64,000 nucleotides of DNA, from contig OZ020519.1 in assembly GCA_963971425.1 (NCBI GenBank), positions 20,419,397 through 20,483,396 on the forward strand, written 5' to 3'. The DNA comes from Bryoerythrophyllum caledonicum (taxonomy: Eukaryota; Streptophyta; Bryopsida; Pottiales; Pottiaceae). Positions 32,583 to 63,925 of this stretch are shown here, piece by piece; position 1 is the stretch's first letter; each line of letters starts with the position of its first letter. The notes below the pieces were generated by a model, which was not told where the DNA came from, ran no database searches, and saw nothing but the letters and a program-made list of their open reading frames with translations. The position numbers were made by a program, and so were the translations under genes.

Positions 32583-32607
32583 ATGCTGTATTTAACTATT
32601 TCTGGAC
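32583..32607 (+). repeat. Left terminal inverted repeat
   Basis: The 25-bp terminus shares ATGC, ATT and AACTATTTCT(G/A)GAC with the right end. Target duplication ATCT lies immediately outside. An internal partial copy of the shared core (ATTCAACTATT, minus) lies at 63,398-63,408. Confidence 0.75.
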
Positions 32608-32626
32608 TTTGCAAAGTCCAGAAATA
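32597..32626. other. Perfect 30-bp palindrome at the left terminus
   Basis: TATTTCTGGACTTTG is followed directly by its exact complement. It overlaps the inner 11 bases of the left terminal inverted repeat. It is absent from the right end, so the element's ends are asymmetric. Confidence 0.85.
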
Positions 32627-33086
32627 AGGAAGAAGGATTTCAGTGTAGTAGAATAGTGGCACCAAAGAGATTGAAAGGGATACACATAAAACTAATCTTA
32701 ATCATTCAGCCGGATATCTCCGGATGATTTCAGTCACACGATACGAATCGATTACAGTGATAGAACCTTGCTCAAGGCAAAGTACAATATTATCGACAGA
32801 AATCCTACTAACTCGATTTTCTTCCCAGGGAGTACTAAGGGTTTGCCTTGAGCAAGTGATTTTAGAGCAGGAGGCATTGATATGTCATGGATGCCGTTCA
32901 AACAGCAGGAGATAGCCGGTCGAAAGCAGGGAAATCAGAAAATATTTGGTCATTTTTCAAAAACAAAATTGCTTTTTCGGAAGGGAGTCCTTTTACAACA
33001 CCAATACATACTTGATCAAATCTACGAGACAACATTGATTGGTCTGAGTGAAACTCCTGGATGGAAAACCAATACCTATCCTCGCA

Positions 33087-33539
33087 CTACCTCTGAAGAC
33101 TTCTAAAGATCTTTCCAGTGCGCCGGTGCGTACATGTCCGAATCAACTCAGACCCTGTGTCACAACCAGTTTGAAATGGGCTGCAGCCGCCCTCCGAAGA
33201 AGATTCCTCCTTGTCTTCATACCATGGGTCGTCCTCCTCCTCTTCTTCAACCGAAGCACCTCCAAAGACAGTCTCATCTTCATCAGAGTCGACCTCGTTC
33301 TCGTCCTCCGCTTCATAGTCGCTGCCGTCCTCCTCCTCTTGAACATACTTGCTCTCAGCGTCCTCCTCCAATTCGTCCAGAACACACCGATTGGAACCTA
33401 TCGCCCTTGTGTACCCGACTTGAAAGCGAAGTATTCGTCCCTTCTCCGAACCCTGAGCCTTGCTCACCATCCTTCGTGAAACTCTCATGTCTACCGAATC
33501 AAATTCTTCCCTCTCCTTCTTCCTACTTGCGAAAGCCAT
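33087..33539 (-). CDS. Acidic hypothetical protein (150 aa)
   Basis: An intact frame begins MAFASRKKEREEFDSVDMRV. A basic first third is followed by a strongly acidic middle (DYEAEDENEVDSDEDE, VEEEEEDDPWYEDKEE). I recognise no family. Similar acidic short proteins often bind histones or basic DNA-binding partners, but that is inference. It is one of the few unbroken frames of the large element and lies near its left end, pointing outward. GC content is higher than that of the flanks, supporting coding. There may be further exons. The interval 32,627-33,086 contains one variant palindrome (32,710-32,723) and no gene. Confidence 0.45.
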   Translation of the reverse strand: MAFASRKKEREEFDSVDMRVSRRMVSKAQGSEKGRILRFQVGYTRAIGSNRCVLDELEEDAESKYVQEEEDGSDYEAEDENEVDSDEDETVFGGASVEEEEEDDPWYEDKEESSSEGGCSPFQTGCDTGSELIRTCTHRRTGKIFRSLQR

Positions 33540-34121
33540 CTCCTCTCTCTCAACCCTGGCAATGGACTGACAAGACTAACAAGTTGAAAGACAAAACATA
33601 TAAATTAGTGCAGACCTGAACTCTCTCTTATACTATCCTCCCTATCCACCCATTAATTACAGTTCTCGAGCGTAGGTAAAAGAAGAGTCATTGATTTAAG
33701 TCGCCATAACACCGAGACTGATAGATATAAAGGTTGATTCCACAGACACGAATGACCAACATGGTAGGCCATGAGTCAAGCGTGCTGTCGTAACGTGATG
33801 ATAGGAAGTACAATCTCCGTTGTCAACCATTAGCATCACTTGAATGATAAGAAGGATCTCGTACAACTGATATAAAGTGTGTAATTGACCGTGCATTTTC
33901 AACTTAGTTGTGGCATGTCATAAATCTAAGAAGGAACCAGCCACAGGAATAACCAAAAGGTCTCTGATACATTGTTGAAAGTTCCATCGTAAGATAAAAT
34001 GCAGTATTGTAGTCACAGAAGATCTCCGGATATGATACAAAACTATTCAAAACACCTAGGTATGCTCAAAATTGGGAAATGTGGACCCCATTATTGAGAA
34101 TGAGGGATGTCAATCTCCTAA

Positions 34122-34425
34122 TCGGAGATCTCCGGCTAGATCTCACCGACTAAAACATGGCAATACATGAACATCCTTACGTCCACAAAATTTAACTTCC
34201 ATAGCCGGAGATCTCCAGTAAGCATTCGGAGAGACGTGATGGTCTAAATATATACCGGTGGCATAATCTAGTCAACAAAAATTCTGTCACTACTCAATGT
34301 ACCCAAATTATAGTGAATGGAAGAGCACACTTTCGATCCTCTTCACGATGACTGGCGAGAGCTGAAAGGAGGGATGCCGAACTCGGGCCCAGATAATAAT
34401 CGCCTCCACAGCCGGAGATCTCCGG
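34122..34425. repeat. Palindromic 14-mers downstream of the DUF7869-like gene
   Basis: CCGGAGATCTCCGG is perfect at 34,412-34,425, with one-mismatch copies at 34,122-34,135 and 34,205-34,218. All lie in the non-coding 3' flank of the minus-strand gene. The interval 33,540-34,517 has no other supported feature. Confidence 0.85.
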
Positions 34426-34517
34426 TGCTCTTCCGTGTGGACGTAGCAACTCTACGAGATTTTTCACAAAGAGAATTTCACAGAACTGAATTATACATAG
34501 AGGGATTGATCAATGAA

Positions 34518-37500
34518 TCAAGAATCAGCGGCATTCGCTTTCTCTAAGTTCACAAGCGTTGCTTCTTTCATTTTCCGTAAAATGGACCTCGTAAGTTGGT
34601 TAACTTTGCTTGACCAGCTCGCAAACAACACGGAACTCACATGACACCAAACAGGCTTCTCTTGGTCTGCAACCCAAGTGGCTTTCCAACAGTCCTGGTA
34701 CTTCTTCTTCAGATTCTTCTGCTTGTTATCAAGCTCCCAATACTTAACGAGGAATTTCCCGTAGTTGACATTATCATCTTTCGTGACAACCTCTGAAACT
34801 GCTCTTCCCTGCCAGATAGGATAGATGTCAGGATAATTAGGTCTTACTAAAACCCAGGAGCCATGACGAATGTCACGCCAAGGATTAAAAGTAGACTTAA
34901 GGGCTTCATTAGCGGGTCCGCAGTAAGACTCAAGAACCTCATCCTCAGGAGTGACATCCAGTGGTTGTGGAAGCAATCCTAGCGGATTTGAACCTCCCTC
35001 ATGAGGGCCTCTCCAATCATGGGCAGGCCAAAATCCCTCTTCGAGTTCGGAAGGCGTCTGTGGAAGTGGCTTATCTAGCTCGTCGATGACGCCCTTCCAG
35101 TACTGAAGGTATGGGCGGATGGAGTCCGCATACCCTGCGCACTTAGTCATTCCGGACGCCCAGTAGTCAACGTACTTCCGAAGCCCCGTCTCTATAAAGT
35201 TTTTGTTCTCCGTCACTTTCCTGGCCTTGTCTCTGGCAACATCTTGGTTTTCGACAGGGCTCTGCTCCTCATTACCCCATATAGGTTGAAAGGGACGGGC
35301 TTGAGAGATCCTGTTGGAAGCATGGGACGTCCGAAGTCATCTACCTTCCAAAGTTTTATCGGCTCTCTGTTCATGGGTAACCACTCTGCATCAACGACAG
35401 ATTTCTTGAACTTCATGACCGGAACACCGTCATTGTCAACGTAGAACTTGAAAAGATGCATATCACTTAGTCCTACCAGACGTGCCGCCCCTCTGCATAG
35501 ATAGCCATCGACATACGATTTAAAATCGGCGACCTCTTGGATAACTTCCGGCATGAAGGCTAGTTTCTGTGACTTCATGTATGCCTTCATCAAATCCGCT
35601 AGAATATATGTACTGCTTTTCTTCAGTTCTTTCGATTGATGACTAAAGTATGCATCAATATCTTCATGCGTATGTCCGACCACCAAGAAGCCAACTTGTA
35701 TCTTCATGAAAACACCTCGAGCAGTTAGCAGTGATAAGAATGCCATCAAATATTGGTTCTTGTTGTCTTTCGCTGAGTTGTCAAGCTGTAGAAACAATTT
35801 TGGTGGCAAAAGCTTTGGTCTCTTAAAAGCACTCGGCTCCACGGGCTCTAAAGCGTCAACGCACCTGCTCTTTCCCCTCACGAGCGCCGCGAACATCGAG
35901 TTTGGAGGAGGGTGCTCGAAGAGCGCTCGTGTCTTATGTAATGGTGCTCCCTCAAGCCGCCGAAAAAGTTTTGTTAGAGAGGAGATGGTGGCGTTCGAAT
36001 CTCCAGGCCATAAAGCAGGAGCATAGTGAGCATACGCTTCGTCGACATGACCGTGAGCCACCATTCCAGTGACATTCATGGGAAGCTGTCCAAGACCAGA
36101 TGTCGCCTTAGTAGTCCTCCACATGCGTGGAAGGGCAGTCTTCGCAGTGTCCATCTTGTCGTGAATGACACAAAGAAAGGTCAGCGGCTTTGCCTTCAAC
36201 TCCTCTCTCCATGTCGCGTAAAGCTTTCGACAAAATTATTGGTGATTCAAGTAAGCCTGCCTGTTGCTATAGAATAGCTCGTAAGCGGGCGTTCCCTTTG
36301 GAGTCGTCAGTAAGAACTGATTGAATTCATCGCAAGTACTGCATTTTGCGAAGGTGCTTCCAGATGGCTTAATAGCAACATTCCCGAAGAATTCCTTTCT
36401 AACCCTACTAACTGTGGACTGACTTACAGGAGGGAGACCGTAGGAGTCGTTTGTCTGCAAATTGAAATAATTATCCAGTGAGAAGAGAATTTCAGAAGAA
36501 CAATCCAATAGACAGTGCAAAGTACAGAGTAAAGCAATTGAAGATCAATGCATGTCAACGATGACACAACGAGAGATCTCCGGTTCAGAAACTAGAACTT
36601 TGGTCGACTGAAAAAAAAAAGTTCAAATCCATAGCATTATGCAGGGACTGATAACGTACAGCATTGACGCTGGCTCGAATTTGCTTCCAATTGTTTCCCG
36701 CAAGAAGATACTTGAGAGTGTCAATCCGACCATTCCCGACACTCTGCATTTGGTGAGGCATTTTATCCGCGTTGTCATTAATAATCAACGTCATTGACCC
36801 CATCGCTTATATCGTGGCAAGCCATGGGCGCTTGATGCCCTTGTTACCGTGAGTTGCATTGATGATTCCTCTACTGAAATGTGCGATGTACGAGTGAAAC
36901 GTGGACTTCCGAATTCCATGGATCGTGTACCATGCAACTGAGCAGACCTTCGTTCCCAATAGAGTGACGTACTTTCTCTTCCGGTCCCCGTCAATGGAGT
37001 GGAACTGCCCGCCTACCAAGATCCCATACTCCTTTTGGTCTTCAAAGGATTTGTCATAGAAATCATGTCTAACAGAAAGAGTCTAGGATTGTTGAAAATA
37101 TTGGCAGCATCGTCTGGGACAACACCTTTCCGAGCTGACTTTACGAATTTCGTCATCCGTAGTCGTTTTGGTGTACAAAGATTCCTTCTTGTTGAGGTCT
37201 TGCGTCGGGAAATGAAGCGGTAAGGCTCCTTTGCACGACCCTCCAAATGAGCACCAGAATCAGGTTGTTAAGGCAGGGATGCAAAATGATCTATTCTGCA
37301 TTTCAAAGACCGCCTAGAAGGAAAACAACATTCAAGAATGGGCCACGATACATGACTCATAATTCTCTCCGTGTCCCCCACAAAAGCGTCGAGGACAGTT
37401 ACACCAATATTATCTTCTCCCAAACATCCACTACGGAAATGATTTGCTGATAATGCGGCCATGATTCTTCCAGAACAGAGTACCAACATATTCCCGTCCA

Positions 37501-37972
37501 AGCGCTGCACTTCAAGTCCAACCCATTGCTCTCGTGGTAGGAAAGGGGACTCGTCGGACCGGAGATCTCCGGTTGGAATCTTGACATCCGCCCTACTCCA
37601 CAGGACCGTCCGCCGAAGTGTGTATACAAGTGAACCGTATCCGCGTTGCAAGGGTATGAGTGGAAATTCTTCCGCCAAGGACGTTATGGCCATTGGTCTA
37701 AGTAATACGAACTCATTGGAACCGACTGGTATGTCAACTCCAAGCCATTGACCGACGGAGTGAACCTCGACAATTGTCGCTTCTCCAATTTTGCCTGAAC
37801 CTGGCCTCATAAGATTTACGGACAATCCTGACCACAAAACCTCTGACCTTCCAGTAGACTATTGGGATGGATCATCTTCTTCCGTGTAATCCGCTGGTCT
37901 AAAATCGAGGCACTGGGCTGCGACCATGGCAAGATCGTCCGAGTCACTCTCCCACCAATCAGAGTCAGACAT
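34518..37972 (-). pseudogene. DUF7869-like transposase candidate
   Basis: The start at 37,972 gives MSDSDWWESDSDDLAMVAAQ, an acidic N-terminus. Next come a C-x-A-W-Y segment (VCSVAWYTIHGIRKSTFHSY), a zinc-knuckle-like FAKCSTCDEF, HDKMDTAKT, LQLDNSAKDNKNQY and VGFLVVGHTHEDIDAYF. The last three boxes, in this order, typify proteins catalogued as DUF7869, widespread in transposon-rich genomes. Their acidic residues could form a DDE-type active site. A C-terminal module (GSWVLVRPNYPDIYPIWQGR ... KYWE) resembles a BAH-like chromatin reader. One intron (36,521-~36,584) holds a variant palindrome. Stops at 37,861, about 37,268, 36,809 and 36,238 and a frameshift near 35,260 disable this copy. Confidence 0.6.
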
Positions 37973-38086
37973 TCTCCCGGCCTCCGTCGGTGGATGTTCG
38001 GCTGGTGGCCGATAGCTTTAGTAAGTGAATGAGTGGATGTGGATTCGAACTGAATATCCAAGGTCAAAATCGTAGGGTGTGTCTAG

Positions 38087-38383
38087 CCGGAGATCTCCGG
38101 ATGACTAGATAATGATCAACAACGATGACTTTTTGTGTAAGTGAGGATGAGAAGAGTGGAGCTAAAAGTTCCATTTGTATCTTACCGGAGATCTCCGGTT
38201 AATCCGAACCAGGCTGCCGTGATAACTTTCAATAGTCATTTTGCACTTGAATAGCCGGAGATCTCCGGGTACCCTGGGCTCATAAAATGGGACAGCCAGA
38301 TGTTTTAGGGATAGTTGCCGTGGTCTGCAAGCAAGCATGGCAGAATCCTGACTGTCACACCTAGAACAGCCGGAGATCTCTGG
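38087..38383. repeat. Four palindromic 14-mers upstream of the DUF7869-like gene
   Basis: Perfect copies lie at 38,087-38,100, 38,185-38,198 and 38,255-38,268, and a one-mismatch copy at 38,370-38,383. They begin 115 bp upstream of the ATG at 37,972, spaced 98, 70 and 115 bp. The position suits operator or transposase-binding sites. Another perfect copy at 37,559-37,572 lies inside coding sequence of the first exon (encoding TGDLR). Confidence 0.85.
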
Positions 38384-39444
38384 TTTGATTTTATGTTGTC
38401 ATCGAAACATTTGGCGGACGGAATATTCGAGGGTGTGGCAGAAAGATTCACTTGCCAATCCCTGAGAACTGTTCGGATTCACACCCCAATCAGTCACGTC
38501 ATCTTACTTCTTGAGTCAAAATATGTTAGGCACTCGAGATTTGATTGTATATTAGGAGACAAATTAGTTACTGAATCACTACACGACAGCTCCCGATCGA
38601 CTTCAAGGGCAGAATGCAACACAATCTACACCAATCCTCTCAAATTGAATGCGGATACGGAATTTTACGAGGAAACAAACCTAACACTCCTGGAATACTG
38701 TCAAATTGTTTCCCTGCAGAATTTTAGCACGATGTTGCGCACGCAAACACTCTCACTGACTGGCTCAGCTCCCATAGTATCCCAAACCTCCAGAGCAAAA
38801 AATGATGAGAGCTGAGTTGAAGGATACTCTTATCAACCTCCTCATCAACTCCTGGTGGGAAATTTCAGGCGCTCAAATTTGAAACGAATCTTGGACATGC
38901 ATACCCTATCATAGTAGCTGTTGTACACCATCATGATAGTGCGCATTCTTCGACGTGCCCACGACCGAGGCCACATTTCACTCATGATAAATGAAAGGCT
39001 TGTACTCTTAGGATGACCGTATTGTAAGGAATCCATCTAGTTCCCAAAGTGCTGCAAATTAGAAAACGGAAGATGAAGTATGCCCCATAGTGTATCTTTG
39101 TGTTTACTAGGGCCGTATCACGTCATGGACTATGTCACAGTATAATATAATCGTATTAAACTTCTCGTAGTCACCATTGTAAATAAAATTATACCCTACC
39201 CATGGAAAACAGTCGGCCCTCTACTGCCCACTTGTATTGTTCAACTGGCAATACAGGACACAAGTAGAACGTCGGCATTCGTTACCAATTTGAATTATCT
39301 CCAAAATTTCCTAGTTCGATAGAAGTTATTTGGCTGTTTTTGAAGATACGTGTAGAAATAAATAATTGAGCAGATGCTTTTAGAAGTACAACAACCTGGT
39401 CCTATGAATTCGGGTACAGCTTCCGTGGTCAGGCTGGATTGTAC

Positions 39445-39612
39445 ATCAGGGTTTAGGGTTTAGGGTTAAAAGTTCAGGGTTCAGTGTTTAGGGTTTAGGG
39501 TTCACGGTTTCTACTTCACGGTTTGGGGTTGAAGGTTAAGGGTTCACGGTTTGGAGTTGAAGGTTAAGGGTTCACGGTTCACGGTTCACTGTGGAAGGTT
39601 CTGGGTTCATGA
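39445..39612 (+). repeat. Degenerate telomere-like repeats
   Basis: Several GGGTTTAGGGTTTAGGG runs degrade into GGGTTCACGGTTT and GAAGGTTAAGGGTTCACGG units. This is interstitial plant-type TTTAGGG-like DNA inside the spacer between the divergent genes of the large element. The spacer 38,384-41,900 otherwise has no supported gene. Confidence 0.65.
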
Positions 39613-40239
39613 AGGTCGAGGGCCTATATCACCTTTAAATCTATAAATTAAAATTAGTTTGATACTATGAACTATAACCTTAAATTTATCGATAACTATA
39701 ACTTAAAAAAAAACTGGATACAATAGAGTGTAAGGAAATTTAGGGATAATTGAACAATAACTATTTAAGACTTTGATACATTATAATTTAGTTAGAGGGA
39801 GAATAAAGAAGAGAAGGAGGATAATGGATTTAATTTTAGAGTAGACTAGTTGTTGGTGCTTGCTTTGCAATGCATTAGCCCAACCATTTTTATGTATTTT
39901 TAATATTTAAAAATACTAAAAAATGAAAGGTGGAATGATTCAGTGTACTGTTGACACCGCGGTTTACTGTAGCGTTTTTGTAGTTCACAGCATGGTTGAC
40001 TACGCAATAGTTCACTCCGTGGTTTATTGCGCAAATTATGATTTTAGTAGTATGGCTAGGAGTTGGCGCTTGCTTTGCAACGCATTAGTTCAACCATTAA
40101 TGTAGTTTTAATATCACAAAATATTTAAGAAGAAAGGTAACAACAATGTATATATCTCTTTGAAACCTATGCATGATTTAATAATGTAATAGAATAGAAT
40201 AGAAAAAATAATTATACTATTACAATAGTACAATATTAT

Positions 40240-41440
40240 TAACCAAGGATGGATATTGAGTAGGAGGGGAAAGTAAAAATAAAATAAATTAAAATCAAGG
40301 GAGAGGGAGAGTAAGGGAAGGACAGTAATTGAGAAGGAGAGTAAGAGAGGCAGGGACTTGAGGGATTCATTTTTAGAGTAGTTTATATTTTTAGAGTATG
40401 TAATAAGGGGAATCTTAAAAAAATCAAAATAAGAAAGAAAGATGGAGAGGGAGAGTAAGGAAGTGAGGGAGAATAAGGGATAGGGAGAGTAGAGAGGGAG
40501 TGTAAGGAAGGGAAGGAGAGTAAGTGAGGAAGAGTGCGGGATTGTTTTTATAGTAGTTAATTAATTTTAGAATGTGAATTTATTGAAAGAAGGAAAATCC
40601 AAAAAATAAAATTCAAAAGGAAAATAGAGATGGAGATGGAGAAGGAGAGGAGAGTAAAAGTATAATAAATTAAAAACAAGTAGGAGGGAGAGTAAGGTAG
40701 GGAGAGTAAGGTAGAGAGGGAGTAAGAGAGGGAGAGTAAGGGAGGGATTTATTTTAAAGTAGTTTATATTTTTAGAATATGCCACAAGGGGAATTTAGGG
40801 AATTTAAAAATAAATAAAAAATAGAAAAGAGATGGAGAGGGAGAGTAAGGAAGTGAGGGAGAATAAGGGATAGGGAGGGAGAGTACGCAAGGAAGAGTGC
40901 GGGATTGTTTTTTAGAGTAGTTAATTAATTTTAGAATGTGAATTTATTGAAAGAATGGAAATCCAAAAAAATAAAATTCATAAGGAAAATAGAGATGGAG
41001 ATGGAGAAGGAGAGGAGAGTAAAAGTATAATAAATTAAAAACAAGTAGGAGGGAGACTAAGGGAGGGAGAGTAAGGAAGAGAGGGAGAGTAAGAGAGGTA
41101 GAGAATTGATGGATTCATTTTTAGAGTAGTTTATATTTTTAGAGTATGTAATAAGGGGAATCTAAAAATAAAATCAAATGTAAAAAAGAGATGTGGAGGG
41201 AGAGTAAGGGAGAGGAAGAGTAAGAGAAGGAGAGTGCGGGATTTATTTTTAGAATAGTAGGTTAATTTAAAAACGTGTAATTATTGAAATCACGGGGAGT
41301 CTAAAAATTATTAGAATCAAGATTAAAAATGAGATGGAGATGGAGAAGGAGGGGAGAGTAAAACATAAATAAGAAAAACAAGTGAGGGAAAGAAGGGAAG
41401 AGAGTAACGGAGAAGGAGATTAAAGTTTTTCACTTATGAC
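40240..41440 (+). repeat. Purine-rich GGGAGAGTAAGG array with ~370-bp period
   Basis: Short AGGGAGAGTAAG-type repeats are organised in longer units. A segment with TAGTTAATTAATTTTAGAAT recurs at about 40,553 and 40,917, with ~150 bp of near identity after each, and a third weaker copy is near 41,250. The strong purine strand bias is consistent with triplex-prone spacer DNA. Confidence 0.75.
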
Positions 41441-41949
41441 GTTTTAAATTCAAGTATAATGATTACTCTAATACCCGGTGAACCTGAGTATCTACTGTAG
41501 TCATATGTAATACCCAGGAAACCGGGTATCAATACGTCTTGTCACGCATGCTCACGACATTGACAATGTCATGATTGTGAAATGTACACATTGTATATGT
41601 ATGTGATTAGAGCTGATTTTTTAGTTCACCCACTGCCATCATGAGCCGTTACACCCTTGAGCCGTCGAGCTTGTCCATTTTGGGTTAGGGGAACTCCAAG
41701 CATCAACCCTTTCTTGATTTTTATGGGTTTTGTCTTTGTAATGTCGTAGGTAGTGAGCGGAAGTGGCGGGAGGGGTTTTTTTCATGGTTTGCGCAATAGG
41801 CGTCAACGCATTAGGTTAAGGCGGTGTGCGCTGTGAGAGGCTGTCGGTGTGCAAGGTGAGTGTTGATATAAGTAAGGGACATTGAGCGTATCGTCGAGAG
41901 GTTGTTTCTGGATATAGACTGAAGGTCGGAGAGCAGGATTGGAAGAGAG

Positions 41950-46606: not shown

Positions 46607-46608
46607 TT

Positions 46609-46624
46609 TTGGTGCGTCCGCCGG
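46609..46624 (+). promoter_or_regulatory. Primer-binding site
   Basis: TGGTGCGTCCGCCGGG lies two to three bases after the 5' LTR. It resembles the TGGCGCC...GCCGGGGA tRNA-Asp sites of plant gypsy elements, with changes. The following leader to about 48,100 is non-coding. Confidence 0.55.
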
Positions 46625-50952: not shown

Positions 50953-52362
50953 CACTATAAGAAACCCGTGTTTTTAGTGACAGGGCAACTAACGTGCAAT
51001 TATGTTTTGTGCAGCATCCGGCACGTCAACGTTGACGTCCAAAAAAATCCGTTATAATTGACATGCGAAAAACATGCCAAAATCTCAAAAAACAGGCCCA
51101 CGTATTTTAAAACATCACAAAAACTTGGGGGTTGAAGGTGTTAAAAGTCTGCCATGTGGCTGCCACGTCGCGTCCACGTCATCGCAACATGGACGGGCAG
51201 TGCCACATCTCCAACTTTTTCATCCGGGCCCTTGGTAATGTGGCCCATGATGTGGCGCATGACGTGGCATTAGATTGTGACTAGGCTTGCATACGTGGAC
51301 CCGCCATTTTATGACGTGGCACCTTTAAAATATGACGTGTCACTTTTTAAAATATGACGTGGCATGTCCAATCAGCATAGTTTAATGCAATAATTAATTG
51401 TGGACAGTGTAAATTGGGACGTCATTTCTAACACGGTATGTTTTCTGTGACGTTCGTTATGACGTTTTCTGTGACGTTCGTTATGACGTTTTCTGTGACG
51501 TTCGTTGAGATGGAGGTCACCAAAAACAAGCACCAGGTCAGCAAAAGCAAGTGCCATGTCACCAAAAAGAAGCGCCATGTTACCAAAAAGAAGCGCCATG
51601 TCATCAAAAAGTACCGTATCACTTTAAGTTTCAAGGGTAACTCAAATTCACCCAAATAGATGGATGAAAGTGAATCACTCTTGATTCAAGTGTGATGAGA
51701 TAGGAGAGAAGGCCTTACATATATACAATGGGATGCACAAGTGGTGACAATCCATATGGGATTATTGAATTTGTCATGGTATTAGCCTCGTGTTAGCATA
51801 AACATTAAAATGTCACAGTAGACGTCCATCCAGACGTCTGTTCCAACATCCTCTTTGCCTACGTGGCAGCTGATTTCAACCTTGCCTACGTGGCACAAAC
51901 ATTTTTAAAAGAATCCAATTTCTACCTTGCCTACGTGGCTCAAACATGTTTTTTGTGATGTCAGTAAGGACATTCACGTTTTTTGTGATGTCAGTAACGA
52001 CATCCACGATTTTTTTTAGGGGTCAGCCCATCTCCATTGTGTTTTAACCGTTGGGAAGTGTTTTACGGGAGGTTGCAGTAATAATCTCGAAGTTACTCAC
52101 AGTAACGCTGAAACCCCCTGCCGACGTGGCATTGTCACCTTTCTGAGGACGTTGTCTAAAACATGACTATGTTCACTAGGACGTCCCGCAAAAAAAATAC
52201 GTTTATGCTCACATCTCTGCGTTTTTCCGCCAATTTTTCCATGTTTGGTGCAACATCCACCAGAATCCGAGAGCCCAAGGCTCGGCCCGTTCGCAAAAAC
52301 ATGTTTTGAAAAACACACTTGATCACAGCTAACGTCACAAAAATCACGGGTTTCTTATAGTG
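50953..52362. mobile_element. Non-autonomous CACTA (En/Spm-like) element
   Basis: The 1410-bp element starts CACTATAAGAAACCCGTG and ends with the inverted sequence, flanked by the 3-bp duplication GCA (50,950-50,952 and 52,363-52,365), as CACTA elements require. Subterminal ACGTGGCA/TGACGTGG words occur in multiple copies (51,253-51,365; 51,862-51,940; 52,122). Internal short tandems include GACGTTCGTTATGACGTTTT and an AGCGCCATGTCACCAAAAAG unit. There is no transposase, so it depends on an autonomous relative. It interrupts the polyprotein frame between protease and RT. Short frames inside are incidental. Confidence 0.9.
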
Positions 52363-55300
52363 GCACCACACAAAGAGGTGGATAGAGCTCAACCCTCGAG
52401 GGCCAATGTGATGCCATTTAAAAGCATGGGACCGGGCCTTTATGAATGGGTCCCCACCGGGGAGTTTGTAGACTGGTTGAGGGAGCACCCCACCTCGAGC
52501 GCGGACGAAGCCATATCCGTGCATTTCATCGATAGTGAGCTCATCGACGGGGAAACCGGATTGGGACTTAGCCTAGTCCCCCTTCTCGATGACCTAGAAC
52601 CTGCGGCGGTATTTGGACTGGATGTTGATGGCACACAAGAGAACGAGTTGGAAGTGTTGGGAAGCGAAGGCCCTCTCAAACCCTCCCTCCACTTCCGTAG
52701 GACATCCACCGGTATACTAGCTAGTGGTTCTGGGGCAACGTACCCCCAAGTTCCGAACGACTGGTACCAGGGACCTACCAAACAACCACACGTACATCAT
52801 GATGATTGGAAATTGATGGTGGTCTCTCACGAGGCGGAAGGAACCCGGAGTATAAAGGTGGGCGTTGGGTTGACCGAGGAAGAGTTAGTGGAATACAAAG
52901 CACTAGTGGTGGAGTTTGGGGACATCTTCGCGTGGTCATACAAGGACCTCAAGGGCATTCCCCCGGCGGTAACGCAGCATCACATCCCCCTTCTCCCAGG
53001 CACTACTCCCATTAGACAGAAAGAGCGGCGCATGAACCCTAACCTGCAGCTCATTGTCAAGGCAGAATTGGAAAAACTACTCCAAGCGGGGTTCATCAAG
53101 CCTGTGGAGATATCCGATTGGGTCTCCCCCATGGTGTTAGTTAAGAAGAAAAATGGGAAGCTACGGGTGTGCATTGACTATAGGAAACTCAACCACCACA
53201 CCCAAAATGACCACTTTCCCTTGCCCTTTATCAACACTATTTTAGAGGAGATAGGTGGTCATGAGCTTTACACGTTTATGGATGGTTACTCGGGCTACAA
53301 CAAAATCTCCATTGCTCCCGAGGACTATCACAAGACCGCCTTCACGACCCCGTGGGGCACGTTCATCTACTTGGTCATGCCTTTTGGGCTTTGTAACGCC
53401 CCTTCCACATTCTAGAGGGCCATGACCTATGCTTTCTCAGACCTCTTACATAAATCAATGACGGTATTCATTGACGATTTTAGCACCCAGTCCACAAAGA
53501 CCGACCACCTCAGGTGTGTGCGGCAAAGTTTCGAGCGGTGTAGGCGCACCGGCATCGCTCTCAATCCCGGAAAGATTTTTCTCGCCGTAGAGAAGGGAGT
53601 CTTTCTAGGATTTGTGGTTTCCAAGGAGGGTAGAGAGCCACACCCCGACAAGGTGAAGGTCATTGTGGAGTTAAGCCCTCCCACAACCGTCAAAGAGGTA
53701 CAGAAAACCCTGGGGCACATAGGATGGTATCGGGAGGTTATCCATGACTATGCAACGAAATCCATGCCCATTACTCGACTAATCCAAAAGAACATAAGAT
53801 TCGAATGGACTCCCCATTGCGAAGAGGCCTTCGAAGTCTTGAAAAAGGAATTAACCACCTACCCGGTTTTGAGGCCCCCGAATTGGGAGTTGCCCTTCGA
53901 CAACTTTTGTGATGCATCTGCGGTGGCTGTAGGGAGCACCTTATGCTAACCCGTGGGCCATACCGGCAAGGACCACCCCATTGCCTTTGCAAGTAGGCAA
54001 TTAAACCCTGCCGAAAAGAACTATACCACCACCGAACGTGAGTGCTTGGCAATGGTCTTTTCGGTCAAAAAATTTCGCCACTACTTGTTACTCAACCCCG
54101 TAGTGTTCTACGTGGATCACATGGCCATCAAGTACCTTGTCAACAAGGCGGACTTGAGTGGTCGTTTAGCGAGGTGGGTCTTACTTTTAGAGGAGTTTGA
54201 CTACACGGTGGAATACCGCCCGGGGCGGATGCACCTTCAAGCGGATCACCTCTCACGCCTCTCAGAGGAACTTGGTGTCGTCCCCATTGATGAGGCCTTG
54301 ATAGACGAGGACTTGTTCAAAGTATCCTCCATTCCCTCATGGTACAATTTAGTGGCCAAATTCCTTACTACCCACCTTCTACCGGATTCATTGTCCAAAA
54401 ACGAGCGTCGGAAGGTTCGTCTCTATAGCCGCCACTTTACCATAGTAGGGGGCAAATTGTACCGTCGTGGAATTGACGGCTTACTACGTCGATGTGTGAC
54501 ATCCGTGGAAATCCCCACGATCCTCTCAGCCTGCCACGACAGCGCATGTGGAGGGCATTTCTCTGGGACCTTGACGGCCCAAAAAGTCCTTCGCGCAGGC
54601 TACTATTGGCCCACACTCTTCCAAGACGCCCATGAGTACACCAAGCGATGCGACGCTTGCCAACGGTATGCCCGAAATGACCTCCGAATGAACATGCCAC
54701 TACGCGTATCCTTGCCCTTGGTCCCATTCGAGAAGTGGGGTATTGACTACGTGGGGGAGGTGCACCCTAGCTCTTCTAGTGGAATGAAGCACATTGTGGT
54801 AGCAACCGAATATCTCACCAAATGGGCCGAGGCTCGAGCAGTAAAAACCAATGACGCAAGTCATGCGGCCAAATTCTTGTTCGAGCAAATCATCACACGG
54901 TTTGGTTGTCCCAAAATCCTCATTAGTGATAGAGGGAAACACTTTTTGAACGAGATGATCGAAGCCATGACCACTCGGTTCAAGATCAACCATCGTAAGA
55001 CCACCCCTTATCACCCTCAAACCAATGGGCACACCGAGCGAGTTAACCAAACCCTCGTGAATATCTTGAGGAAGACGGTCACCAATTCCAAGAGGGATTG
55101 AGACACGAAACTCCCCGCTGCATTATGGGCCTACCGAACCACCTTCAAGGTGACCACCCATGCTACCCCCTTTTCGTTGGTGTATGGCATTGAAGCCATT
55201 TTGCCAATTGAGTTCGAGATCCCCTCCTTGCGAGTGGCCGTGACCGAACGATGGTCCATGGCCACGTCCTTAGCTGTCCAGTTAGAACGATTGGAGGAGC

Positions 55301-55587
55301 TCGATGAGATGCGCCGATGGAGCGCCCAACACATGGAAGCCATCCAACGTCGAAGGAAGATTGCCTTTGACAACCGAAACAAAGTCCGGTCACTACAACC
55401 GGGCAGGCTAGTCCTCCTCCAAGATGCGAGGAGAATGGATTTCCCTGGCAAGTTTGATGCCTTGTGGTTGGGACCATATCTTGTGAAGGAGGTTTTCCCC
55501 AACAACTCCATTCAACTCCAAACCCTTAACGGCGAGGATTTTTCCACACGAACATCGGGCAACCGATGCAAAGAGTACAAAGTGTGA
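52363..55587 (+). pseudogene. RT, RNase H and integrase of the gypsy element
   Basis: One frame runs through the pol domains. RT spans 53,030-53,480 (SPMVLVKKKNGKLRVCIDYR, then the catalytic box VFIDDF near 53,470, a FIDD variant). RNase H spans 53,880-54,290 (CDAS, TERECLAM, ADHLSRL). Integrase has an HHCC finger at 54,530-54,665 (H..H..CDACQ) and a DDE core (WGIDYVG, SDRGKHF, NGHTERVNQ, about 54,736-55,045). It ends with a non-chromodomain C-terminus. Three in-frame stops, TAG 53,413, TAA 53,947 and TGA 55,099, replace codons normally CAG, CAA/other and TGG. All are C-to-T/G-to-A type changes. Confidence 0.92.
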
Positions 55588-55733
55588 AATTGCTCACAAC
55601 CTTCACGATTGAACCTCCAAATTGGGGTTACAGCCACGGCCCATTTGGGCACGAAAAGATCGAACTTGACCGTGTGCCCATGCAAAAGAGTTGGGTTTTC
55701 TGCCTCTTCGAGTTGTCCCAGATGGCCGCCATG

Positions 55734-57971
55734 TGTGAGCCGCCAAAACGACTCCCGAGGATGAATGGACCGCACATCAATTGTGTTAGGTTCAACTAGT
55801 AGTTGAAGTGGGTAATCCAATAGGATTAACCCATGATTTTTGATCAATATGGCTAAATGGCCTTTCCGTTCACTAATTCCTTAAATAGGAGCCACTCTAT
55901 GGCGACCACGGATTTTATTAAGTTAACCAACAAAATAATTAGAAAGGAAAAAAAGAAGGAGGTTTAAAAGCCCCTAAGAAAATGGTTGGAAGAGTCCAAA
56001 AGGTGGGGCAAACCCCTCGTCGATCACTAGGGAAAATTAGGAATTACCCCAAGCAAGGGGAATTCAATCTAGGTAGATTAATTGATTTAGCAACCTTGGA
56101 ATTAACTTAATGGCTCACTTATTGGAGATCATGCACACCCATGTGGCATGGAGTTAATGTTTAGATTTAGATATTCCTTGGTTACTGGGACACCCACTCT
56201 TGTTAAATGCAAGGGTGGCACGGAATTAGTAGTCATAGGGTTAGTAGGTCTTGTAAGAAGAATCCATTTATGGGAGAAGGCCAAAGGCGGCAGGGAACCA
56301 TCTTTGGGAACTCAAGGAGAGCAAGGGTTGGGGGGTTACCCCCTGGAAGAACTGGGACATTCAGGGGGATGAGAGAGGCGTAGGAAAAGAGAGAACAGGG
56401 GTGTGGAGAGAATGAGAGCAGGAAGTCCCGGCCACTAAGAGTGCGAATTAGGTTAGGAAGAGCAAGGGTTAAAGACGATCAAGATCGCGAGGAAGAGCAG
56501 GGGCTGAAGACAATCAAGATCACAAGGAACGAGACGGCCAAGATCACCAGGGGCTGAAGACGATCAAGACCACGAGGAACGAGACGATCAAGAACAGCAG
56601 GAGCTGAGACGATCAAGAGCACGAGGAACGAGACGGCCAAGAGCAGCAGGAGCTGAAGACGATCAAGAGCACGAGGAAGAGCAGGAAGAGCTAAAGACGA
56701 TCAAGATCGCGAGGAAGAGCAGGGGCTGAAGACGATCAAGATCGCGAGGAAGAGTAGGGGCTGAAGACGATCAAGACCACGAAGAACAAGACGGCCAAGA
56801 GCAGCACGAGCTGAAGATGATCAAGATCACCAGGAGCTGAAGACGACCAAGATCACCAGGAGCTGAAGACGATCAAGATCACCAGGAGCTGAAGACGACC
56901 AAGTTCACCAGGAGCTGAGGACAATCAAGATTACCAGGAGCTGAAGACGACCAAGATCACCAGGAGCTGAAGACGATCAAGATCACGAGGAACGAGACGA
57001 CCAAGATCGCGAGGAAGAGCAGGAGCTGAAGACGATCAAGATCACCAGGAGCTGAAGACGATCAAGATCACCAGGAGCTGAAGACGATCAAGAGCAGCAG
57101 GAGCTGAAGACGATCAAGATCACCAGGAGCTGAAGACGATCAAGACCACGAGGAACGAGACGGCCAAGATCACCAGGGAGCCTCTCCTCACCCCCCGGCT
57201 AGTAGTAAATTCCTTATGCAATAAGGAACACTAAATTTCTAAATACTAAAACCATGCGGAAGCGTTGCCAATTTTTTGCTAGAATTAGGGTTTGCTTCAC
57301 ACTCAACTAAACAACCGGATAATTGGTCATTAGTAAGTAAAATCAGCCGGAGGTTCATTCGCAACGAGGTTGAGGTGGGATACTTGTGTGAATGGATGTG
57401 GTATATGCGTGGAATGTGATTCACGATCTTGGATACATCATATGTTGAAGGTGCACTGCTGGTCGCTGGCTGTGAGGTCCAGGGTCGAGTCAAGTGATCA
57501 ATTGAATGCTGCCATCATGTTAAGCACAAAAAACTAATAAGAATCAAAAAAACAAACATAAGAATCGGAGTTGAAGTCAAGGAGATAATTAGGATTATAA
57601 GTTGGTAGAAAATAGGGAAGCCTGTCAGCTGCCAACTGGTTCCAGGGTCACACCTAAGCCTGAACCTGATCATTAAGGGTCTAATCAAGTTCGGAATGCT
57701 CAATTGAACCCATGAGCGTTGACAACGTTGCATTCGGAGCCCTAGAGGAAAAGTTACACTTGTTCAGAGGTGGGTTCAATTAGAAGGCTGGATTAAGTCA
57801 CCACCTCACTAGTTAACCACAAGGAACCCAAGTGAACATGAGACGTGTCGCCATGCTTGTATAAGTTGTGTATGAATGGGCTGAGGGTTGGTTACACAGG
57901 CAACCAGGCCCCATATTAGGATCTTGTGTTCAAGATAAGCCACCCTTTAGGGGCGGTTTATTTGGCTCACA
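55734..57971 (+). repeat. 3' LTR (2238 bp)
   Basis: It is 189 bp shorter than the 5' LTR because its internal minisatellite (about 56,490-57,175) has fewer units. The sequence before it (GAGTTGTCCCAGATGGCCGCC) is not an obvious polypurine tract, which is unusual for a transposed copy. Confidence 0.92.
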
Positions 57972-58980
57972 ATGGCCCTCCCAGGTGTGATACTTGGATG
58001 CCGGAGTACGTTAATGAGCAGTGGAAGTGGATGGCAGAAGCACAAGAGAAGTCCGAAAAGCCCGTTCCGGACCCAACTCCCATACTGTCTGTGACACCAA
58101 AATCAATCCCGAGAAGAAAATGCAAGACCACCTTGAAAACTTTGACCCCATGTTCCTCGTCGCGGGCGGAGAAGGGAAAGAAAGCAAAGGCCGATGAACC
58201 TGGCCTCGCGATCGAACAGTGCCTGAACTTCACACAGGCTGACGTCGCCAAAATGAAGCGGACTAAAGTTGAAGCAATTGGCAAGGTTCTGGACGACGCA
58301 TTCAAAAACATTTACGTAGTCGAGAATAAGCCTTTGACAGTAGAAGACCCTGTCATAAAGAAGGATGTCGTGAAGCTCGTTCATTTCAATAACCTGCACA
58401 GGGCCCCCCTTGGAGGATTAGTGTACAGGGGCATCCTGAAAGAACGGCTTGAAGGAATCATCAACGCAACTCGCGCATCCTCGAAGGCCACGACACGTGA
58501 GATTCACATTCGAGTCCTGCCACTGAAGAAGAAATGTGAAGGAAGTAAGGTGGAGTTCTTTGCGACCAAGCCGACGAAGGAGGACTACCTAAGGGACTCG
58601 ATACACTTTTACATTATTGGTGGTCAGCATACTGTGGCAGAGCACAAGATCTTGTCACACGAACTGCCATCAGCGTGGACGCTCGAAATAATCTCGCACT
58701 TCTCTATCATCCTGGTTTGGACCAAACCGGACCCCAAAGACATGACCCTGCTACAACTCTCGCGCGCTCTCAACCAAGATCTGACGGGTGTGCGGAAGGA
58801 GCAGAGTTTTACAGAGCAGTTGCAAACGTGTAGAGTGAAGTGGTTTGAGTTCGGAAAACCTGCCCCCCAACTCTATGGTCGTCCACAATCTGACGAATTC
58901 TCGGTAAGCTTACATTCTCCTCCTCAATAAATTTCAATTTAATCAATGCGCTCATTCTTCAAAGCAACCAATCCAATGTA

Positions 58981-58994
58981 CCGGAGATCTCCGG
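58981..58994. repeat. Palindromic 14-mer in a 123-bp intron
   Basis: A perfect CCGGAGATCTCCGG sits within the intron 58,904-59,026. It is followed by GGTGCTC, as at 34,412. Confidence 0.9.
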
Positions 58995-60729
58995 GTGCTC
59001 ACACATTGAGTTATATATTATTGCAGACGTTCCAACGACAAGTAGTGCCGACGGTTTTCACTCACCTCGGCAAAATTGACCCAAAAGATGCAAAGGTCCC
59101 TCTTCTATTCGAGATGGATGACGCGGTGGTCCAGAAGTGGATCCAAATCAATAGGATGTTCGTCGCTGGACTCCTACCAGACTCGAAGGGGAAGACGGGC
59201 GACCTAGCTAAGCTGAAGCGGAAACCTCTGGTGCAGAACGACTTCAAGCCACTCTATAAAATGAGCGCTAAAGACCTGGACTACCTCGCGGAGTTAGTGC
59301 TCGCAAAGAAGGTCTGTGTGATGTCCTCCAAAGCGGCAAACCAAGGTACTATGAAAGGGCAGGCCAAGACTCTCGAAAACGCGGCAAACAAGGAGAAGAG
59401 AATCCGGGCAATGAAGTATGAACTGATGTTAAATTACAAGTCCCACCTCCTTCCCTCGAAGGCTGCTGACTTCGTCCCTTACACGAAGGAGCACTGGGAC
59501 GCCTTTGCGGAAGAGTGGGATATTGGACGGGTCCAGCTCGAGTCCTTGGTGGACGCCGCTAATTACTCTGCCAAGGGTAAAGCTTGGCTTGAGGGTCGAC
59601 TGAAGGCGATTAACAAGGAGACCAACCCCACCCTAGACGTCCTTGTGTCCATTTGGAGTCAAGACATTGTTGAAGATGCTGCCGAGGCCACACCCACGGA
59701 TGACACGTCCCTATTTGACTCCAAATACACCTGCAGGGTTCTGCCAGAGAGAGGGGGCGAGATCGCCGAAGTACTTATCATGCCGGACATTTAGGAGTGG
59801 CGTAACGTCAATGACTCTCACTTTTACTTCTTTTTCCTCTATCGCGTGAAAGAAGACATATGCCCTGCACAGGTCCTGGATGCGTTGGACTTCAGAACCA
59901 TTTTCAACCATCTAGAAGTGGACACGAAGGACGAGAGGACGAGGGTCAGATCACCGTCCATTCTTATCACCGATGTCGCGGGATTCGTTGAATTGAAGAG
60001 GTACATCAGTCTTTGGCAGAGAGAGTTCAGGGGCAAGGTGAAATTGTCGGCGACGCATGTGGTCTACTACCTCCCCCACCCAGGTGATTGGTTTCCGACC
60101 CCAGTAATCAGGGTTGAGGAGGCAGTGTACTGTGTATTCCTATATGAATACGACTCGAGCGAGACGTCTGCTCATTCATTCAAGAAGCTCTACAAAGTCC
60201 ACCCGGACAAAATGCCGGCCTTCTTTTCAGCTGCTCAACATCAAGAAACCATCCAGCGCTGGTAGCAAATTGGTGTCCCACAGCTGAGGATCTCGGTCCT
60301 CGATTTGTTGTTCACGGGGTCCATTAGAGAGGGTATGGTAGTCGTCAATGTCCATGGTGGACCACATTTAACATACCTCGGCTTGGTAAGCAGGACATCC
60401 TTCCCAAGCACTTCAGCGTCAAAGATTTTTGGTCCGAAATCAGTTATATGTTTTGGATGACGCCTTATGCAGGTTTTTTCTTGCAGACTCATGACGCGCG
60501 GGTCCTCGAGATTGTGAACAACAAAGATGCCAAACTCAAGGCATAATCTTGTGCAGAAGAAATATTCAAGTACCACTTGAATATCTTAGCCGACGTACCC
60601 GACGCCGTTGCCAAAGAGGCAAAGTAGACTGCAATCACTGGATCAACCCCAGGCGTTGGGGTTCAAACACGGGCAATGTTGAGGATGAACTACACCGGCG
60701 AGGTATAACGCCTAAGAAAACTACATGAC

Positions 60730-60855
60730 CCAGAGATCTTCGGCTGTTCATACGTTTAGGATGCCTTCCATATTTTAGGGCTCTTCTTTATCATGGCCAT
60801 GCTCAGTTTTAGTTCGCCTAGTAGATAAGTATTACTTTGAACCGGAGATCTCCGA
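60730..60855. repeat. Two palindromic 14-mer variants in one intron
   Basis: CCAGAGATCTTCGG at 60,730-60,743 and CCGGAGATCTCCGA at 60,842-60,855 lie within the intron 60,703-60,925. A further one-mismatch copy in the last exon is at 61,260-61,273. Confidence 0.8.
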
Positions 60856-61974
60856 GTGTATGATACCGTTTTCTTTTGTATTGCATCCTAATGTTTTTTG
60901 CACTGACTTCGTCTATGTGACGCAGACGTTTGATGCCACGATGATTGAAGTTGATGTGTTGTTTGAACCGAGTTCATCAACGGCTCCCAACATTAGACTC
61001 CAGTCCTTGGCCACAGCCGCGCGGATCATCGATACGGGCACCCCAATTGATCCCATGCAGTAAAACGTTGATGAACCACCTCTTCCTATCAGGCAAGCCT
61101 CACCTAGTTTGACAAGCAACTCTACTCCGGACGCTAGACTGGGTACCTCTCAAAAGGAAACCAGTTGGCATTCCAGAATACCACGTTCTCCTCCGCCAGA
61201 TCTGGACGATGATACGGAAATGTCCGATTTTTTGGAGTTCGACAACACTCACAGAGCAGCCGGAGATCTCCCGCTAAACGACCCTTCAAGGACGTCGCGT
61301 CCTGAAGTGGATGTTGTGTTTAAGAGTGCCGGGGACTTGACGTTGCGTGACACCGATCAAACGATGGATGAGGCATCGGCGCAACAAACATTGCGTAAAT
61401 TACATGCTATGAGCTCTCTGCGCAGCCCTCCGTGGAGCCACGGGCAGCTGGCTCAAAAAGAGAAGAAAAAAGCAACCGCGAAGAATGCTGTGGTGAAAGT
61501 TCCTCCTCGTCCACCTACAATTCAGACAAGGGCCCAGAAAGATAAGGTGAATAGTTACTTGTCCATCAAACATTCTTCATTGTTCTAAGGATAGTTCACT
61601 CGATACAGACCGTATTCTTACCACCTCATTACTGGTATTCATGTGTCGGCATGATCAACACAGTCGAAGGATGTCGGTGTTAGAAACCCCGTACAAACTG
61701 CTTAAGTCGATGGTGTAGCTTAGACCTCTAGGGTTACTCCACCTACTGTCCTAGGTGCCTAATATGTACATTCATACTTACTTGACATCATCTACTCAGT
61801 GCTTCTATTTTCCACCAAACATCTCAGGATTGTGAGTAGGGAACACTTCTATATGTATGATTGCAATTTCTTTGTGCTGAACTACTTCCACATCTCAGTC
61901 TACGTACTCATATTTTGGGTTTAGGTCTGAAGAAGTTTACTACGATCGTCCGAGAGCCTCTAACCGAGGATTAG

Positions 61975-62598
61975 GTAACAAAACAACGGGTTTATCATGT
62001 TGTGTTTGACTTAAATGGAGTTCTTGTACACAGGGGGGAATTTAAATAGGGACAACCGAGAGACATCAAAGTAAGGCCTGGTTCCCTTAAACTCCTAAAC
62101 TTCGTGGGAGAGAAGGCTACTGTCTCATTTTGGAGCAGTGTAATGGAAAAGAATATTGTGGATATCATCAAGGAGTTGCGCAAGAAAGGTGCTACCATTC
62201 CGGAAGGCGCCAAAATCCTGACGCAGGCCAATTGCACAAAAACATCATATATGCTTCCATCCCATGCAAAGAAGCCAATTTTCCTAAAGGACCTGACAGT
62301 TTATAATAGGAAAACGTCGCCCACGTCTCCAAAGGATGTCTTGCTTGTGGACGATACCCTCGTAAAGAACGTCCTTAACGATCCCTTTAGCGCAGTTCAT
62401 CCGCCATCATGGACTGGGTTTTTGGATGAAACTTGGTTGACCACCATGTTTCTCCCATGGCTCTCTGGACTGCTAGCGTCAAATGAGAATGTTCCCGACA
62501 TTATTAGACGGAATTCATTGAGGTTTGCCAGTGATCCAGTAGACAAGAATTCCCCTAAGGCCCGCTCCGTGGTGAAAGGCATAATTTTGGCGCCTTAG
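61975..62598 (+). pseudogene. FCP1/NIF-type HAD phosphatase-like gene
   Basis: The frame reads VYHVVFDLNGVLVHRG, the HAD motif I in the plant DLNG form, with the nucleophilic Asp present and the second Asp replaced by Asn. Then ATVSFWSSVMEKNIVDII corresponds to motif II (xWSS), FLKDLTVY follows, and VLLVDDTLVKNVLN ... HPPSW carries the motif IV DD. TWLTTMFLPWLSGLL ends the domain. This order matches the NLI-interacting-factor/FCP1 homology domain, which dephosphorylates Ser/Thr of nuclear targets in characterised members. One TAG at 62,047 interrupts it between motifs I and II. Upstream exons were not resolved. It follows the long gene on the same strand with a 390-bp spacer and lies within the large transposon. 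Confidence 0.6.
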
Positions 62599-62846
62599 AA
62601 CAATGAAGTATACTGGATATTATAAACTCTATGCTTTGAAAATGTTAAGTCAAGCATGTCTGTGGGATTTTGACCTTTCAATTTTGAAGATAAATGTTGT
62701 TGTCAATAACGTTATTTGTTGAGGTCTTTCTTTTTATTTGTTATTGTTAGTGTCTCGCCCCCAAACTTCACCCTACAATATCTTTGAACACTATTGAGTA
62801 TTCTTCTGACAATTTTGACTACGGAACGTTGGTCTGCGAGGGGCAC

Positions 62847-62860
62847 CCGGAGATCTCCGT
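62847..62860. repeat. Palindromic 14-mer variant
   Basis: CCGGAGATCTCCGT lies between the phosphatase-like gene and the next frame. Two further variants lie at 63,519-63,532 and 63,692-63,705 near the right end of the element. Confidence 0.75.
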
Positions 62861-62943
62861 TCGAGGATGTCGCTTGTATTCCTCCTACCATATTTTTTCT
62901 TCGTTTCAATGTTCAATTTCTAATTCTATGGTCGTTCCATCTT

Positions 62944-63233
62944 ATTCACAAGTCATAATCATATCTCTCTGCGGTCCTCTCTGCTCGGACGAGGTCCTTG
63001 ACTTGGCCAAGTCCTACTCCACGCAGCTACCTTCCTTTGATGATACGGCTGATGTTATTCGAATACTTCTGCGGTATTTCAATGTCGGGATCCGGTCTCC
63101 TATGCGTCTAGATAGGCTCATGGAGGCGGCCCAAGTGTTATTACCCCCAGACATCTTATCAGATATTCTTTTTTGCTATGCCAGCAAACAGACTCGAAGG
63201 CCTAGCTATGTTAGGTTTTCTCCACATCTTTAG
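62944..63233 (+). CDS. Hypothetical exon near the right end
   Basis: The segment encodes DEVLDLAKSYSTQLPSFDDT, then ADVIRILLRYFNVGIRSPMR and a Leu-rich helix (LMEAAQVLLPPDILSDILF). The amphipathic pattern and codon use look coding rather than random. I do not recognise the family. The upstream part of the same frame (from 62,784) runs across a palindromic variant and is probably intron or flank. It may be a final exon of the phosphatase gene or a separate small gene. From 63,240 to the terminal repeat I see nothing supportable. Confidence 0.3.
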
Positions 63234-63900
63234 GAAGGCCTCATTTAATCCTAGAACAAGGCATTATTTGTGGCCTAAATGTGTTGTTGGAGATCTAGTT
63301 CTATTCAAGAATCCTAGAAAGGCTATAGTCCATTATTTAACATTTGGGAGACACCATACAGGACGGGTAGAGGGCATCTATAAAGCACTTAAATTATAAT
63401 AGTTGAATCGATTCTCCGTAGATTACATGCGCCTCTCAGCAACGGCCACCCTTTATTTATTATATGACACTTTTTAATATTGAAACAGATTAGTACTGGA
63501 CTCTTACTCTGATCACATCCGGAGTTATCCGGTTGCATGTTCGATCAGTTGCGAGTAATTTTTGTCCGCATCTCTGTCCCATTTTGCCCTACCACATTTT
63601 TTCCAACCACACATTTGTGATGTACATTATGTCCATCAATTTCTATTTCCAGGACTCGGTTCTTCTTCTGAATTCCACTTTGATTTTCACCCGGAGATAT
63701 CCGACTGCAATTTGCGGACTCACGTATTGTCTAAATTCAAATTTGATTGCTCTAGCCATTTCTTCCTTCATAAGTGTCATTGGTGATGCATTTAATGCTT
63801 GAAAAGTTCTCTAAACTCCTCGACTTTTATGCTTCACTATCTTTTATGAAGCACATCTCCAGATCTTTCTTTTAGTCGTTAGTCCAAAATTCACCTCATC

Positions 63901-63925
63901 GTCTAGAAATAGTTGAATTGGGCAT
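63901..63925 (-). repeat. Right terminal inverted repeat
   Basis: Reads inward as ATGCCCAATTCAACTATTTC plus TAGAC. It pairs with 32,583-32,607. ATCT follows directly at 63,926-63,929. Confidence 0.75.

Follow-up and report, generated by a model that had tools for sequence, protein, structure and literature searches.

A high-copy, multigene 17-kb DNA transposon with a putative DUF7869 transposase and a private palindrome array in the moss Bryoerythrophyllum caledonicum

What kind of DNA splits a copia reverse transcriptase (RT) gene in the moss Bryoerythrophyllum caledonicum? We analyzed a window of 64,000 nucleotides (assembly GCA_963971425.1, contig OZ020519.1, positions 20,419,397 to 20,483,396 of the forward strand), in which the copia RT reads ...LLILLI Y up to position 32582 and resumes with YVDDLIILA from 63930. 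The first-pass annotation, made from the sequence alone, had proposed that the intervening DNA is a multigene transposon, and the junctions that it gave (LLIY at 32,582, YVDD at 63,930) are exact. Joining the left flank through ATCT (32579-32582) to ACGTGG (63930 on) yields CTC ATC TAC GTG GAT GAC, so that removal of the interval with one ATCT does restore the RT codons. Upstream of the insertion, the split copia copy is also interrupted by an in-frame stop. Also borne out were the duplication of ATCT, identical on both sides, and the 25-bp imperfect inverted ends, which match at 20/25 positions, a level (≥20) reached by 39 of 1,000,000 random 25-mer pairs from the window. The predicted length of ~17.5 kb without a nested retrotransposon agrees with the 17,546 bp that we measured after subtracting a gypsy element. 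The interval 32583-63925 is a real DNA transposon inserted in a copia RT gene, and its boundary features are as follows.

32583 to 63925, no strand assigned: transposon copy including the nested retrotransposon, delimited by the split copia RT, a 4-bp target site duplication (TSD), terminal inverted repeats (TIRs) and boundaries that are the same in nearly all scored copies
32579 to 32582, no strand assigned: left TSD, ATCT
63926 to 63929, no strand assigned: right TSD, ATCT
32583 to 32607, plus strand: left TIR; the "CCA" copies have ATGCCATATTTAACTATTTCTGGAC
63901 to 63925, minus strand: right TIR, 20/25 against the left TIR in the window copy
32597 to 32626, no strand assigned: 30-bp perfect palindrome (hairpin) read from the sequence, at the left end only
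44180 to 57971, plus strand: nested gypsy long terminal repeat (LTR) retrotransposon, LTRs at 44180-46606 and 55734-57971, TSD ATGGC

We searched the 437-Mb host assembly with the left 200 bp and the right 200 bp of the element, a check that had been set beforehand. The first look gave 297 left and 278 right candidates, mostly unscored, and the left count may include the hairpin on both strands. Forty matches were scored per end, with the window copy counted in each 40. At the left, 38/40 began at query base 1 and the remaining two at bases 2 and 7; at the right, all 40 stopped at query base 200, the last base. Next to the 40 scored left ends, the hairpin gave a further 39 matches on the opposite strand. 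Both ends could be read in 16 of the 28 copies examined; the other 12 had no right end in the fetched DNA, the end lying beyond it, being truncated, or having been displaced by insertions. Twelve of the two-ended copies carried exact 4-bp TSDs (ATCT, AATT, TTAT, TAAT, GAAG, AAAT, TTAC, ATAT, ATTT, TTCA, TAAT, and ATCT), with A or T making up 42/48 letters, and four carried TSDs matching at 3/4 positions (CTAA/CCAA, CTAT/CTTT, AGTA/ACTA, and TAAT/CAAT). The TIRs were identical at 25/25 positions, with the sequence ATGCCATATTTAACTATTTCTGGAC, in 6/16 two-ended copies. The search thus returned many further copies with shared ends and 4-bp duplications. That the copia split reflects a rearrangement of an immobile interval is a reading we regard as almost impossible, contradicted by the same boundaries recurring, together with TSDs, at numerous unlinked sites.

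Ten copies were read over 20 kb and were 91-93% identical to the window copy at aligned positions; five of them span the whole element, at 16.8-17.3 kb. Nine of the ten lack the nested gypsy element and continue through its insertion point. The LTRs of that element show 98.8% identity across the first 1,446 bp, yet its polymerase frame has in-frame stops, and both LTRs contain a 26-bp tandem array (44901-45900 and 56455-57250). On one contig (C7, 10201753-10203973), two left ends of the transposon lie ~2 kb apart in opposite orientation.

The gene that we call G1 lies on the minus strand in two exons.

36662 to 37971, minus strand: G1 exon 1 (bounds approximate, ~437 amino acids)
34518 to 36454, minus strand: G1 exon 2 (bounds approximate, ~644 amino acids), with the DUF7869 core, putative transposase

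The DUF7869 likeness first noticed by eye holds: G1 matches Pfam DUF7869 at 8.6e-45, and scoring of the 7,998 candidates with most shared words yielded 46 relatives. Among these are an environmental protein (68%) and proteins from Ceratodon (46%), Physcomitrium (45%), and the liverwort Riccia (32-37%); the moss and liverwort proteins are G1 homologues whose records name no element. We aligned the window's protein with 40 of the 46 relatives. D255, N256, K262, and VGHTH are invariant in these 41 proteins, D129 and D132 are present in 40/41 (one gap), and D295 and D297 are present in 40/41, giving a candidate triad D129-D255-D295 (alignment numbering). Such a near-invariant aspartate core is expected for a DDD enzyme, and G1 is most likely the transposase of the element, as judged from sequence conservation. 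Neither single-sequence nor profile searches of viral contigs found G1 relatives. Of 54 pattern hits in prokaryote genomes, three loci carried DUF7869 relatives, all on contigs filed as bacterial metagenome-assembled genomes and probably eukaryotic contamination. Past the right end of one copy (c1a, 19737-19937), a stretch shares 44% identity with the G1 C terminus (residues 1014-1080); it may belong to another, diverged DUF7869 element next to that copy.

The second gene, gene B, runs on the plus strand and would encode ~1,200 amino acids in about six proposed exons.

42492 to 42676, plus strand: two small initial exons of gene B (proposed), with ATG and GT/AG in the sequence
43785 to 44179, plus strand: gene B exon 3, first part, broken by the nested element
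57977 to 58898, plus strand: gene B exon 3, remainder
59030 to 60380, plus strand: gene B exon 4
60488 to 60700, plus strand: gene B exon 5 (proposed)
60928 to 61588, plus strand: gene B exon 6 (proposed)

This long gene had been labeled ParB/DGQHR-like, and the label fails. The motif GGQHTVAEH is the sole reminder of these proteins. Residues 140-600 had no relatives among 5,294 protein candidates; three open reading frames (ORFs) of exons 3 and 4 matched no Pfam family at an E value of ≤1; and a 232-residue stretch matched nothing significantly in the PDB, where the best hit was a ribosomal protein at an E value of 0.1. Gene B might itself catalyze transposition, with G1 as an accessory, since this large orphan gene has the strongest signal of selection at codon position 3 (below). 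We consider this improbable: the tested parts of gene B lack a Pfam, significant PDB, or protein relative, and it is G1 whose 40 aligned relatives share the near-invariant aspartate core.

Two further ORFs had been counted as cargo.

61950 to 62598, plus strand: NIF/FCP-like phosphatase gene (start uncertain), Pfam NIF at 3.2e-8 / 6e-12
33090 to 33575, minus strand: acidic ORF, unsupported as a gene

The phosphatase assignment is upheld by a Pfam NIF domain scoring 46 bits against a cutoff of 21.8 when stops are taken as Gln, or 33.9 bits for the open part alone. Nine relatives were scored among 137 candidates. NIF/FCP phosphatases have the canonical catalytic motif DxDx; this protein departs from it, with DLNG in its place, and the Leu, Asn, and Gly are invariant in 10/10 aligned proteins. 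It had no PDB match at an E value of ≤0.01, and a profile search of viral contigs found no relatives. The acidic ORF was rejected as a gene: variants shared between copies fall 9/12/9 by codon position (9/30 at position 3) and are not enriched there, and an excess of position 3 among its single-copy variants (36/81, P = 0.024) is unexplained. Of the at least four genes claimed as cargo, the DUF7869 gene, the long gene without its ParB label, and the NIF-like gene stand, and the acidic ORF does not.

The window copy has 10 in-frame stops in the G1, gene B, and NIF-like frames, at which other mapped copies have sense codons; the exceptions are one copy that also has TAG at 61972 and one that is gapped at 59792. 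The window copy is decayed. An alternative code with TAA and TAG as Gln had been suggested by the observation that nearly all in-frame stops noticed initially were TAR (the nested gypsy frame also had TGA), and we rejected it because other copies have sense codons and the conserved gene ends use TAA, TAG, and TGA. These gene ends are retained: the G1 stop TGA 34518 in 10/10 other copies, the gene B stop TAA 61586 in 7/7 mapped copies, and the NIF-like stop TAG 62596 in 6/6 mapped copies.

We compared the codon positions of variants common to at least 2 of 11 copies with those of single-copy variants, taking G1 in four in-frame pieces because the window copy is frame-shifted in this gene; the P values treat sites as independent. 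Shared variants fell at codon position 3 in 79/178 cases for G1 (P = 0.0014; single-copy, 195/557) and in 82/168 for gene B (P = 2.4e-5; single-copy, 231/649), and noncoding controls had a position-3 share near one third. The main sources of this signal are the core in G1 exon 2 (33/62) and gene B exon 4 (35/54). These results show that G1 and gene B were under protein (purifying) selection while the family was active. The NIF-like gene was only perhaps under past selection (12/24 shared variants at position 3; single-copy, 40/109).

The noncoding DNA of the element is marked by a palindrome with the core CCGGAGATCTCCGG. The element has 9 exact copies of it and 25 sites at up to two mismatches, against 0.045 such sites expected in first-order simulations; the remaining 46,454 bases of the window have none. 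The main groups of sites are as follows, none with a strand assigned.

32710 to 32723: one palindrome near the left end
34016 to 34425: four palindromes lying between the G1 3' end and the region of the left end
38087 to 38383: four palindromes upstream of G1
43083 to 43546: seven palindromes within the intron proposed to precede gene B exon 3
63519 to 63704: two palindromes near the right end

The sites cluster ahead of G1 and within a gene B intron. Twenty-three of the 25 sites are noncoding and two are coding (P = 5.6e-5), with coding DNA taken as 46% of the element from our gene models, the acidic ORF included. The symmetry extends to A at -2 (21/25) and T at +15 (20/25), with weak C and G outside. 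Because no sequence is conserved beyond this ~20-bp symmetric site, the palindrome reads as an 18- to 20-bp two-fold symmetric site and not as part of a longer copied repeat. The whole genome has 2,718 exact matches, versus 3 for the reversed control. Among the first 50 matches listed, four clusters follow the element's spacing within 150 bp at 16/16, 13/16, 7/7, and 11/11 sites, a loose fit in which offset and orientation were chosen for the best result (the opposite orientation gives 11, 11, 6, and 8). The window copy and the five full-length copies have 7 to 12 exact palindromes each (mean, 9.7), from which 2,718 matches correspond to an estimated ~280 full-length equivalents genome-wide. 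The element is a high-copy, unusually large multigene transposon.

The palindrome is most likely the site of a dimeric element-encoded protein, G1 or gene B. The palindromes could instead be sites for the transposase or for synapsis of the ends, or a by-product of short-repeat dispersal, with no role in silencing. Palindromes do lie near both ends, and subterminal TNPA sites in Spm are a precedent; most palindromes are internal, however, upstream of G1 and in introns, and nothing is conserved past the symmetric site, which counts against dispersal. We regard these explanations together as possible and somewhat on the doubtful side. A ParB/parS-like system, attractive given the palindromes, was set aside because gene B has no sequence support for ParB.

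VANDAL elements are Mutator-like and have a 9-bp TSD, in contrast to the 4-bp TSD and DUF7869 of the moss element. In VANDAL21 of Arabidopsis, noncoding parts, introns, and upstream regions are enriched in the VANC motif, and VANC binding accompanies methylation loss (PMC5735166). The moss element shares with VANDALs a short private motif that is dense upstream and in introns of its own genes and the combination of a transposase with accessory genes (PMC5735166). VANC motifs (YAGTATTAY) have one orientation and often lie in tandem repeats, whereas the motif here is two-fold symmetric with unrelated flanks. The likeness is one of arrangement, and the binding protein here is putative.

The first-pass annotation had also held that the element matches none of the superfamilies known to have 4-bp duplications. 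Its description of a multigene transposon with 4-bp duplications stands, and this further statement does not: published Sola features fit (PMC10741241). Sola elements have a 4-bp TSD, a DDD transposase, TIRs of 11-1124 bp, and very variable termini; some exceed 15 kb, and they are present in the moss Physcomitrella (PMC10741241). Sola2 elements have AT-rich 4-bp TSDs and 12- to 21-bp TIRs (PMC3627910). The moss element has 4-bp TSDs (12/16 exact and 4/16 with one mismatch) that are mostly AT rich, as in Sola2, as well as a 25-bp TIR, large size, moss relatives, and an aspartate core in keeping with a presumed aspartate-based transposase. Because these features fit, by description only, the evidence does not need a new superfamily. 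Whether the element is a large, gene-rich member of Sola, which would refine our reading and not oppose it, we judge an even call: the likeness is by published description, and gene B, the phosphatase, and the palindrome array are absent from the Sola descriptions consulted.

It is unlikely, in our estimation, that DUF7869 transposases define an unnamed superfamily. The word DUF7869 appears in no paper of the open-licence literature searched, and the termini of the element (ATGCC) differ from TG..CA in Ginger, CC..GG in piggyBac, and TA..TA in IS3EU (PMC10045372, PMC10741241). However, Sola termini are very variable, and hence the ends do not discriminate, and the literature search lacked most subscription papers. 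Among the titles and abstract starts listed from the open-licence literature on described relatives, on giant or moss DNA transposons, and on Sola, none describes this family, which does not prove that no description exists.

Several other groups differ from the element. piggyBac elements duplicate TTAA, and the TSDs here are mixed. A piggyBac element would also combine its 4-bp TSD with CC..GG ends (PMC10045372), whereas this element ends in ATGC..GCAT. Ginger membership needs TG..CA ends and TIRs of 40-270 bp (PMC10741241), in place of the ATGC ends and ~25-bp TIR found, and membership in Mutator/VANDAL requires a 7- to 12-bp TSD (PMC10741241), longer than the 4 bp seen here. Polintons/Mavericks resemble the element in size (15-25 kb), in carrying several genes, and in having a DDE-type enzyme (PMC6431247); they differ in their 6-bp TSD (PMC10045372), and Pfam scans of the element's ORFs tested found no polymerase, protease, or ATPase domain. 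Most likely, the element is a new variant within a known broad group, not a wholly new kind, with gene B, an orphan, and the array of palindromes as its new features.

Other features were seen in the window. Within the transposon, 39440-41450 holds a TTTAGGG-like tract and then purine-rich repeats every ~340-380 bp with strong GC skew; in most of the copies fetched, these repeats too can be aligned in multiple registers. At 28130-30113, the minus strand has long coding-looking stretches (...FVRHNFIARWQDD...) with no Pfam match at an E value of ≤0.5, which look like another transposon gene. At 58-6161, 2,357-nucleotide inverted arms with 98% complementarity surround arrays of 12/24-bp satellites and a gap of 200 Ns (2782-2981); they are possibly an assembly artifact or a true palindrome.

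Taken together, we think it probable that this is an abundant family of ~17-kb cut-and-paste transposons with G1 as transposase, accessory genes, and a palindrome bound by a dimeric protein that maintains expression. G1 would bind the ~25-bp TIRs, excise the element, and insert it through cuts staggered by 4 bp in AT-rich targets, producing the 4-bp duplications that we observed. Gene B and the NIF-like phosphatase would be accessory proteins whose function selection preserved in the active lineage. The 18- to 20-bp sites may be occupied by a dimeric protein of the element, either G1 or gene B, that sustains expression of the element's own genes, in the style of VANC. Several results weigh against this picture. 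Stops occur in the G1 alignments of all ten fetched copies, with no working copy among them, and a profile of G1, for which the transposase reading would predict an RNase H-like fold, had no PDB match at an E value of ≤10. The position-3 signal is uneven, with little or none in the last part of G1 (15/47) and in gene B exons 5 and 6 (17/46), and that of the NIF-like gene is not significant (12/24, P = 0.068). Palindrome columns are no better conserved among fetched copies than their flanks (0.960 versus 0.950), as is expected because these copies are decaying and which is no positive proof. A bolder version, in which self-recognition arose independently of Mutator elements, with dimeric gene B or G1 protein reading the ~20 palindromes against silencing, a phosphatase partner, and a DUF7869 superfamily, is tentative, and we doubt it.

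The family places a gene-rich 17-kb TIR transposon at high copy number within one genome and ties the uncharacterized domain DUF7869, through its putative transposase, to mobility. It also brings to light an orphan protein of ~1,200 amino acids with signs of past selection. The palindrome signal of 2,718 versus 3 makes transposon self-recognition directly testable by binding assays.

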